DNA from: Clostridia bacterium
GTDB lineage: Bacteria; Bacillota; Clostridia; Oscillospirales; Acutalibacteraceae
Length of the DNA stretch: 34,392 nucleotides
NCBI GenBank assembly: GCA_017436815.1
Contig: JAFSCI010000044.1
Location: forward strand, 1-34,392
Direction: 5' to 3'
The translations under genes were made by a program, and so were the position numbers. Shown one piece after another: positions 32,985-33,840 of the stretch. How positions within the stretch are numbered: the stretch's first letter is position 1; every line of letters begins with the position of its first letter. The notes beneath the pieces are model-generated. The model worked only from the letters and a program-made list of their open reading frames with translations. It was not told the origin of the DNA and did not search any database.

Positions 32985-33197
32985 ATGCGTAAAGAAAAAT
33001 ACAAATTAATATGCAGCTTGTCTGAGGATGAACAAGGCCGAAGTATAAAAACATACGGCATTGTTGTAAATGACAAAACCGAAATACCCGACATTTCTTG
33101 TAATAAACAAACCGTTTTAGAGTTAATAGAACGCCTGGGCGATGAAGACCTTTCTATGCAGCAGTTGTTTTATATAATTGAAGACAGTATAATATAA
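32985..33197 (+). CDS. DUF6514 family small protein
   Basis: 70 residues with the DUF6514 pattern: an N-terminal beta section (YGIVVNDKTEIPDISCNKQT) and a helical end (VLELIERLGDEDLSMQQLFYIIEDSI). Function is unknown. It is soluble, with no signal peptide and no visible nucleic-acid-binding motif. The gene is full length for the family. A weak AGGTAA lies about ten bases before the ATG, while the promoter is near consensus. The transcript would run directly into the stem-loop array that begins six bases after the stop codon, which may act as its 3' end. Confidence 0.75.
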   Translation: MRKEKYKLICSLSEDEQGRSIKTYGIVVNDKTEIPDISCNKQTVLELIERLGDEDLSMQQLFYIIEDSII

Positions 33198-33202
33198 TGA
33201 CG

Positions 33203-33301
33203 AGGAAAGCAAACAAATTCCAAAAGATTTGTTTGCCTGAAAGCTGATTTATCAGCTTTTGTGGAAACGCAAAGCGTTTCCACACACTACAATCATTATA
33301 A
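33203..33301 (+). repeat. 99-bp three-hairpin repeat, copy A
   Basis: Contains three back-to-back perfect stems: GCAAACAAAT/ATTTGTTTGC (33209-33218, 33227-33236), AAAGCTGAT/ATCAGCTTT (33240-33248, 33251-33259) and TGTGGAAACGC/GCGTTTCCACA (33260-33270, 33274-33284) with an AAA loop. A 14-bp palindrome, ATCATTATAATGAT (33292-33305), overlaps the end. Copy B at 33409-33507 has 94 of 99 bases identical. Confidence 0.9.
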
Positions 33302-33311
33302 TGATAATTGA

Positions 33312-33346
33312 ACGTTGAAATAGTGCTAAAAGTACTATTTCAACGT
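33312..33346. repeat. Stem-loop between the two repeat copies
   Basis: ACGTTGAAATAGT (33312-33324) and ACTATTTCAACGT (33334-33346) form a perfect 13-bp stem with a 9-base loop. No T-run follows, so it does not look like a terminator. Confidence 0.85.
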
Positions 33347-33404
33347 CAAATCAAAGATTTGGCAACAAATTTTCAAAGAAAATTTGACAACGACCATTGC
33401 AATG
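33347..33404. repeat. Three further consecutive inverted repeats
   Basis: CAAATC-AAA-GATTTG (33347-33361), CAAATTTTC-AAA-GAAAATTTG (33366-33386) and the palindrome CATTGCAATG (33395-33404). The first abuts the preceding stem-loop with no spacer. The first two close a C-AAA-G triloop, as does the third hairpin of both 99-bp copies. Confidence 0.85.
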
Positions 33405-33408
33405 ATGT

Positions 33409-33507
33409 AGGAAAGCAAACAAATTCCAAAAAATTTGTTTGCTTGAAAGCTGATTTATCAGCTTTTGTGAAAACGCAAAGCGTTTTCACATACTACAATC
33501 ATTATAA
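33409..33507 (+). repeat. 99-bp three-hairpin repeat, copy B
   Basis: Second copy, 206 bp downstream of copy A and of identical length. Stems: AAGCAAACAAATT/AATTTGTTTGCTT (33413-33425, 33432-33444), AAAGCTGAT/ATCAGCTTT (33446-33454, 33457-33465) and TGTGAAAACGC/GCGTTTTCACA (33466-33476, 33480-33490). Five substitutions relative to copy A, all G/C in A to A/T in B. Two of them form one compensatory base pair. Confidence 0.9.
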
Positions 33508-33546: not shown

Positions 33547-33565
33547 ATCTGTACTTTCGACAATT

Positions 33566-33602
33566 CGAGGTGTCGCCCAGTTGGTAGGGCGCTAGTTTTG
33601 GG
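33566..33602 (+). pseudogene. 5'-half copy of tRNA-Pro (nucleotides 1-37)
   Basis: 37 bases identical to nucleotides 1-37 of the intact tRNA-Pro 199 bp downstream: acceptor 5' strand, D arm, anticodon stem 5' strand and the UGG anticodon. The identity also covers two bases upstream (33564-33602, 39 bp). It ends exactly after position 37 in the anticodon loop; the 3' half is absent. It is therefore not a functional tRNA. Confidence 0.88.
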
Positions 33603-33764
33603 TGAGGTCGCGAGCGCTCACGGTGTGAGAAAAAGCGAGCGTAACGAAGCGCCGCGGTCAACAAGCGAGATACGGCAGTATCGAGTCGTTGGGTACCGCA
33701 AGAGGGTTACCAAAACCGCTCTCATTTTAAACAGCATATACAAACAATTGAATAATAAAAATTT
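33603..33764 (+). other. 162-bp insert between the tRNA half and the intact tRNA
   Basis: Not recognised. The first ~120 bases are clearly richer in G+C than the surroundings and fold readily. Examples are CTCAC-GGT-GTGAG (33617-33629) and GATAC-GGCA-GTATC (33669-33682), the latter bracketed by CAAC/GTTG. The last ~40 bases are A/T-rich and lead into the intact tRNA without a recognisable promoter. No credible gene is present; the open frame crossing it runs through tRNA sequence. Confidence 0.6.
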
Positions 33765-33840
33765 CGAGGTGTCGCCCAGTTGGTAGGGCGCTAGTTTTGG
33801 GAACTAGATGCCGCAGGTTCGAGTCCTGTCACCTCGACCA
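33765..33840 (+). tRNA. tRNA-Pro (anticodon UGG)
   Basis: 76 bases including encoded CCA. The acceptor stem is CGAGGTG/CACCTCG with discriminator A. The D stem is GCCC/GGGC. The anticodon stem is CTAGT/ACTAG with loop TTTGGGA (anticodon TGG). The five-base variable loop is ATGCC. The T arm is GCAGG-TTCGAGT-CCTGT with one G-T pair. All canonical positions are intact. The UGG isoacceptor can read all proline codons, so it may be essential. Confidence 0.97.

Follow-up and report, generated by a model that had tools for sequence, protein, structure and literature searches.

A non-coding hairpin array in a Clostridia genome comprises one and a half copies of a dispersed, probably mobile DNA element with a conserved double-cloverleaf fold

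The window analysed here, a stretch of 34,392 nucleotides from a Clostridia bacterium, carries a dense array of hairpins between an open reading frame encoding a DUF6514 protein (PF20124, stop at 33197) and a tRNA promoter (TTGACA from 33518). The original prediction described at least nine consecutive inverted repeats, starting six bases after the stop and ending ten bases before the promoter, in which two 99-base copies of a three-hairpin block flank four other inverted repeats. Nine hairpins could indeed be placed, in three modules (M1 to M3), and both distances hold with the above coordinates of the stop and of TTGACA. The two blocks (33203–33301 and 33409–33507) are 95% (94/99) identical and correspond to M1 and M3, which share type and orientation, M2 lying between them in inverted relative orientation; the fourth of the intervening inverted repeats is probably the palindrome CATTGCAATG. 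In line with the original remark that none of the stems is followed by a terminator T-run, no terminator-like site was found within the array, and the three such sites detected are all located downstream of it. Its limits had to be corrected to a natural extent of 33195–33504, the outer stems of the modules having been overlooked (Table 1).

Table 1. Components of the hairpin array in the window
Feature	Position	Strand	Remarks
Module M1, solo B-type, three hairpins	33195..33298	-	nhmmer match 33298-33216, minus strand; outer end at 33298; inner end a degenerate TAATG (33195-33199) coinciding with the DUF6514 stop codon
M1 hairpin, GCAAACAAAT stem	33209..33236		inverted repeat
M1 hairpin, AAAGCTGAT/ATCAGCTTT	33240..33259		inverted repeat
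M1 hairpin, TGTGGAAACGC/GCGTTTCCACA	33260..33284		one pair altered two-sidedly in M3, G-C to A-T
Outer-outer junction M1/M2, CATTATAATG	33294..33303		AT core 33298-33299
Complete inverted-dimer element M2+M3, 206 bp	33299..33504	-	nhmmer 33504-33331, E 9.3e-19; aligned in A1
Module M2, A-type	33299..33398		hairpins 33312-33346, 33347-33361, 33366-33386
Inner junction, CATTGCAATG	33395..33404		conserved, with variants between subfamilies
Module M3, B-type, 95% identical to M1	33401..33504	-	hairpins 33413-33444, 33446-33465, 33466-33490
Outer end, CATTATAA	33500..33507		conserved terminus and preferred target half

The segment 33198–33515 folds far below shuffled sequences, both as RNA (−123.9 kcal/mol against −53.1 ± 4.8 in 100 shuffles, z = −14.6) and as DNA (z = −16.3), and one hairpin differs between M1 and M3 by a paired change (GTGGAAAC...GTTTCCAC against GTGAAAAC...GTTTTCAC). 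That the two 99-base copies are local duplicates would suit an origin by chance or by simple local tandem duplication of a hairpin-rich intergenic stretch; the same unit, however, occurs with fixed ends in many other genomes, which refutes this explanation and leaves it a negligible probability.

The neighbouring tRNA region is itself partly repeated. The 5′ half of tRNA-Pro(TGG) is present twice (39 identical bases, 33564–33602 and 33763–33801), the first half being truncated at TTTTGGG and followed by a G+C-rich stretch at about 33603–33720, the second belonging to an intact gene (33765–33840). Just past it lies the C-terminal part of a DUF4368 protein (PF14287; 33909–34391, minus strand, open to the contig end), a domain which we take to be the tail of large serine recombinases. 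This fragment together with the tRNA repeat looks like an integrative-element attachment site. Matches to the DUF6514 neighbourhood on the other side of the array were found in 4 of 120 genomes of the family, own genome included.

As determined by comparison with related copies, the array represents one and a half copies of a dispersed element, M2 and M3 forming a complete copy and M1 an additional half. The full unit encodes no protein, measures about 190–255 bp and consists of an inverted pair of cloverleaf modules, each with an outer stem and three hairpins (the M1 outer stem being degenerate on its inner side); the modules are joined by CATTGCAATG and the element is bounded by TTATAATG...CATTATAA. 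The B-A-B order of the window largely recurs in another genome (G235, L125), and an A-B-A′ array is found in the window's own genome (L008, contig C60).

Further copies were numerous in this genome (1.33 Mb in 65 contigs, 69% complete). BLAST returned 65 matches at E ≤ 10; of these, 16 rows reach E ≤ 1e-5, among which are the window itself, one reverse-strand palindrome and two rows of one compound copy. Scanning with the terminal 24 bases, allowing up to two mismatches, yielded 28 places here, and 29 and 32 places in G238 and G069, respectively; the reversed pattern, used as a control, yielded no match. Twelve contig ends of the genome fall inside a copy, indicating that the repeat breaks assemblies, as is expected of recent repeats. 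The unit is thus short, non-coding, multi-copy and equipped with inverted terminal repeats, its left and right ends pairing in 78.8% of alignment cells, as is characteristic of bacterial miniature inverted-repeat transposable elements (MITEs) in the broad sense.

Several derivatives accompany the full copies. L110 and L113 (and L069) are minimal forms in which both ends are fused round a single hairpin, as if slippage between hairpin arms had removed the interior. Solo modules flanked by TAATG and CATTATA occur at L216 (1501–1606) and L196 (about 2398–2500), and L213 holds a partial copy of the A side; these may possibly have arisen by deletion between CATT repeats, or be mobile separately. 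A 255-bp subfamily carries an extra hairpin-rich stretch within module A (L130 at about 1640–1710, G238). Other G+C-rich, hairpin-like sequence adjoins copies in the own genome (L010 at about 1420–1500, L021 at about 190–330).

Outside this genome the element is widely and patchily distributed. Carriers comprise 15 sampled genomes of one order, own genome included (G348 being counted, as are G004, G048 and G056 from the DNA search), and one genome of another order (G659). A single copy used as DNA query matched 6 of 98 relatives, again with the own genome, in three families, and the 24-base end pattern matched 54 stretches in genome_contigs. Of these, 53 have Clostridia or Oscillospiraceae in their titles and the remaining one is called ‘uncultured bacterium’; where a title names an animal host, it is a ruminant. 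Within the order, a covariance model (R1), built on 61 copies, detected the element in 11 of 295 genomes, the own one among them (families f1, f10, f11, f17, f19, f21, f22 and f26), and within the class in 3 of 391, namely the own genome, G659 with six scored copies, and G836, whose match may be contamination (77% complete, 5% contaminated). Since only the best 8 (order) or 6 (class) candidates per genome were scored under strict filters, these R1 counts are lower bounds. No match was found in viral contigs with three patterns, nor in plasmids and phages with one main-subfamily copy as query.

Copy number can be high. In G238 the 255-bp subfamily occupies 20 places at 88–100% identity, 16 of them at 97–100%, several being contig-end fragments so that the true number may be lower; one of six searched genus-mates (57–96% complete) had a match, G295, and five had none. 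Overall, the element is spread through many gut Clostridia and, judging from its sequences, has recently been active in at least one species.

We analyzed the insertion sites of 64 full copies for which 14 or more flanking bases were available, a set that includes the 158-bp copy L075 and the minus-strand copy at L083, whose right edge is imprecise. The base preceding TAATG is A in all 64 copies and the base following CATTA is T in 63; T is found at −2 and −3 in 45 and 46 copies, and A at +2 and +3 in 50 and 53 copies, respectively. Direct repeats across the element beyond AT did not exceed those in re-paired or shuffled flanks at any length.

Besides the pair L093/L104, empty sites were sought at a set of seven loci, three of which gave a spanning match and four of which (L155, L157, L159 and L133) gave no empty site. 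Compared with the empty L104, the left flank of the occupied L093 agrees up to its final base (89% over 601); on the right side, aligned by hand only, both read AT, 18 bases and TTAGTAT, whereas BLAST picks up the alignment again only 38 bases further downstream, the two lengths differing by 2 bases. The empty counterpart of L130, L167, reads TTATAATG (82.5%). L132 reads CTA[element]TAAGC and its empty counterparts L162 and L168 read CTGTTAGC (95.7% and 93.7%). Insertion was accordingly precise or nearly so at three sites, one of them hand-aligned and one with GT for AT: in the closest pair (L132/L162, 95.7%) the empty site is CTG^TTAG in both relatives, which counts against a strict AT core unless this position mutated later. 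For the L127 site, five relatives without the element, at 70–74% identity, are uncertain at base level, and for copy L040 of G048 no empty site was obtained, only the right flank being conserved in G348. The flanks of L132, L162 and L168 (G168, G142 and G136) are 94–96% identical across genera (G142) and even in another family (G136); this locus itself therefore seems to have been horizontally transferred.

Taken together, flanks and empty sites indicate that insertion is precise and centred on AT, preferably within TTA^TAA, the AT being shared or duplicated. Insertion at an AT core is quite probable, and that the unit is a mobile element at all is highly probable. Among the original guesses, ‘MITE-like’ is the best supported, given that the copies are dispersed and patchily distributed, that their ends are conserved and that empty sites are precise; ‘recombinase target’ stands in the one sense that an AT core inside TTATAA is common to the target and the element ends. 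A TA-duplicating MITE of the IS630/Tc1 type was considered and rejected, as T at −2 occurs in only 45 of the 64 copies, left-right matches of two bases number 34 against 34.6 in shuffled flanks, and the L104 empty site reads CA^TC.

A DDE enzyme that duplicated 2 bp of AT would leave sites indistinguishable from such an AT core. Insertion sequences of the IS30 type duplicate 2 bp of their target, and the array could represent a classical MITE derived from such an IS30-like DDE element. Its hairpins would then be incidental, their perfection being due to hairpin-templated (quasi-palindrome) repair at replication forks and not to selection. The similar ends of about 24 bp, the 2-bp AT and the adjoining of copies by copies are all compatible with this origin, and minicircles and tandem dimers have been described for IS30 (PMC9333248). 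A freely targeted duplication should vary, however, and AT is the core in nearly every copy; moreover, no insertion sequence with these ends was seen in the end-pattern scan, of which the solitary ends were partly read.

Sixty of the 62 distinct full copies and the window copy were aligned (A1, 61 rows), leaving out the internally deleted L075 and L083:6259–6463. RNAalifold proposed 45 pairs on this alignment, 29 of them with two-sided changes. When the two cloverleafs were specified explicitly (77 pairs in eight helices), 94.9% of cells were paired, and two-sided changes affected 45 of the 77 pairs in all eight helices, both outer stems included (3/10 and 8/10 pairs in helices 1 and 5). Two-sided cells amounted to 262 against 64.8 in shuffles, none of 500 shuffles reaching as high, and when partners were slid by one to three columns, no more than 46.7% of cells remained paired. 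Cells are non-independent events, and copies of one subfamily inherit their paired changes. The secondary structure is thus conserved beyond both controls. For pairing of the left with the right end, only 4 cells were two-sided, where shuffles gave 4.6. As covariation resides in the cloverleafs and does not exceed chance end to end, we conclude that the local cloverleafs are what is maintained.

The architecture is also kept in distant subfamilies in which many stems have changed, subfamily identity over the whole length being 54–75% against 51–61% with shuffled partners. The G659 copies retain the TAATG/CATTA ends and the middle CATTGCAATG and differ in the outer stems and several hairpins; with the main subfamily they have in common the GTCGAAA with which the first hairpin begins, and a CAAAATC...GATTTTG hairpin. 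Exceptions are L132, whose B module has one hairpin, and L130, whose A module has an extra stretch. In minimum-energy folds of divergent copies, with brackets read by eye, both modules were closed in 7/10 and 6/7 cases; two closed three-hairpin cloverleafs are lacking in the folds predicted for L130, L132 and the window copy, and the outer stems are not both closed as drawn in L130, the window copy and the cut L279 segment. For the window copy (M2+M3), all six hairpins are predicted, but the minimum-energy fold partly pairs the two ends.

Three explanations may be offered for the conservation of the fold: either folded DNA is recognised, or a transcript matters, or hairpin-templated repair maintains the stems in the absence of selection. 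Repair would likewise give two-sided stem changes. The arms of the outer stems, however, lie about 70–90 bases apart and covary too, and the module architecture persists over large divergence, which favours a requirement over repair, although it does not prove one; a MITE of DDE origin with incidental hairpins is in our view an unlikely source of the array. The folded shape itself may matter to how the element spreads, and the chance that it is needed at the DNA level, as cruciform or single strand, for recognition or copying is a little short of even.

That the array is a structured RNA had also been suggested originally. The copies would then have spread as a by-product, the transcript (a regulatory leader, small RNA or decoy) being under selection. 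In favour of this stand the very strong fold, the presence of two-sided changes in every helix, and a TATAAT that points inward at either end and resembles a −10 box. Over the 77 pairs and one further H1 column, G-U combinations of one strand filled 123 cells (45 pairs) and A-C combinations 79 cells (34 pairs, with 23 of the cells in one column), the remaining cells being Watson-Crick (4321), other (184) or gapped (51). This G-U excess is mild and does not clearly indicate single-stranded RNA on one strand, and the A-C cells mean that the opposite strand folds nearly as well. For 54 of the 64 copies, genes could be called to the left and right; they were oriented (− −) in 21, (+ +) in 16, (− +) in 12 and (+ −) in 5, relative to the element and by simple ORF calls that are sometimes overextended, so that neither an orientation rule nor a bias towards convergent genes was seen. 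Since, furthermore, the empty sites show gain of the whole unit, and since only tRNA reached the Rfam gathering score, in agreement with the original failure to name a family (permissive E-values gave weak matches below gathering), selection on a transcript appears quite improbable as the driving principle. Neither of the outcomes named originally as refuting the prediction occurred, given this Rfam result and the presence of the unit in relatives.

A third candidate source of mobility was the RAYT-driven REPIN or BIME, a Y1 transposase system. We considered it because REPINs share the inverted doublet and the paired changes and because a RAYT-like gene lies near the A-B-A′ copy of the own genome, at a distance of about 1.3 kb; it encodes 224 aa with a PNHVHL motif (L227 3500–4174, minus strand; G000:C60 14002–14673). 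According to PMC3116915, REPINs display inverted doublets and hairpins, undergo paired changes and form tandem clusters. Five further short RAYT-like fragments, partly stop-bearing, were noted elsewhere in this genome.

Clear RAYT hits (E ≤ 1e-14) were obtained in only 4 of 15 carriers compared with 3 of 20 non-carriers, and in 7 of 15 compared with 3 of 20 when weak fragments were counted. With the one query protein used, eight carriers (G056, G069, G168, G186, G238, G295, G324 and G332) had no hit at E ≤ 0.001, G069 being 97% complete; G056 has a Y1_Tnp match which this query missed. Y1_Tnp matched 25 of 62 genomes of the own family and was absent from carriers G004 and G048, and some Y1 or RAYT signal was present in 8 of 15 carriers. 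There is, in sum, no clear association of RAYT with the element, bearing in mind that a diverged RAYT could be missed. Targeting by IS200/IS605 elements is one-sided, to which the symmetrical AT-core insertion seen here is unlike. We therefore regard RAYT-driven spread as very unlikely, and the original ‘BIME’ label is unsupported in its strict, RAYT-driven sense.

The most likely reading is a MITE-like element moved by an enzyme acting in trans that exchanges a 2-bp AT core. In such a model, the enzyme would join or hold both element ends, and a head-to-tail circle junction would read CATT-AT-AATG, which itself contains TTATAA, the preferred target. The AT core would then be exchanged between this junction and a TTATAA target, as by a serine recombinase, which would yield exactly the observed product, and the cloverleafs may act as folded DNA (cruciform or single strand) in recognition or copying. 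Insertion at the end of a resident copy would create CATTATAATG or similar junctions and hence B-A-B and A-B-A arrays; the CATTATAATG junction of the window is the product to be expected of insertion beside, or joining of, element ends.

Neither a mobilising enzyme nor an autonomous copy was found, and the end-pattern scan of three genomes, with solitary ends partly read, gave no evident autonomous element. The region of G069:C17 at 35.5–37.0 kb was examined as a candidate autonomous element and rejected, as it contains only solo or partial modules around a host-type ATPase gene. An exchange of the serine type, and not of the DDE type, is suggested by analogy and is a tentative proposal with somewhat less than even prospects, given that an identical sequence would result from a DDE enzyme cutting with a 2-bp stagger. 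As a whole, the interpretation of the array as one complete and one half copy of a non-autonomous mobile DNA element, served in trans by an AT-core enzyme and conserved in its folds, appears reasonably probable.

Analogies for the core come from serine recombinases: for IS607, recombination between a circle with a GG overlap and a matching dinucleotide has been proposed (PMC4058570), and site I of the Tn3 resolvase has a central AT within TTTATAAA (PMC4499144). Under the proposed model, our element would be similar to both in a 2-bp overlap dinucleotide, and to IS607 also in the joining of its ends in a circle. In contrast, IS607 has a GG core and encodes TnpA and TnpB, whereas no enzyme was found for the present element, and Tn3 resolvase sites are not mobile elements.

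Bacterial MITEs such as Correia/NEMIS, ERIC, RUP and CIR are, according to PMC2229807, similarly about 100–250 bp long, A+T-rich, gene-less and intergenic, with conserved inverted ends and long stem-loops, CIR being two-armed. The elements other than CIR are said there to form a stem-loop by pairing of the 5′ with the 3′ end, whereas end pairing in our element lacks covariation and two local cloverleafs are present instead; MITEs also duplicate TA, whereas the AT core here lies inside TTATAA. REPINs and BIMEs, as described in PMC3116915, share inverted palindromic units, paired changes, singlets, ordered clusters and within-genome amplification. The present modules, in contrast, are much larger, have no clear RAYT link and insert symmetrically at an AT core. 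To judge from these descriptions, the element belongs beside bacterial MITEs and REPINs and is set apart by its conserved double cloverleaf and AT core. No description of such an element was found in the titles and abstract beginnings of the open-access papers surveyed, and one may exist elsewhere.

Integron attC sites keep their structure, are free in sequence and recombine. Our element resembles them in placing structure over sequence and in its putative recombination, and differs in the insertion core. More speculatively, and with odds that we place clearly below even, the element could represent a distinct class of mobile DNA in which shape is the heritable feature, namely two inverted cloverleafs, the TAATG/CATTA ends being fixed and the middle CATTGCAATG nearly so, the arms free as long as they pair, and the folded DNA moved by a recombinase acting in trans, with exchange of an AT core at TTATAA.

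Bacterial MITEs are commonly viewed as shrunken insertion sequences whose interior is baggage. The present element contrasts with this view in that, across families of Clostridia, it is the structure of the interior that is conserved, and in that an AT core is common to its ends and its target. For annotation, model R1 and the end motif allow this assembly-breaking repeat to be marked in genomes. If the fold is required for movement, the element would, beside integron attC sites, allow structure-directed mobility of DNA to be put to the test.
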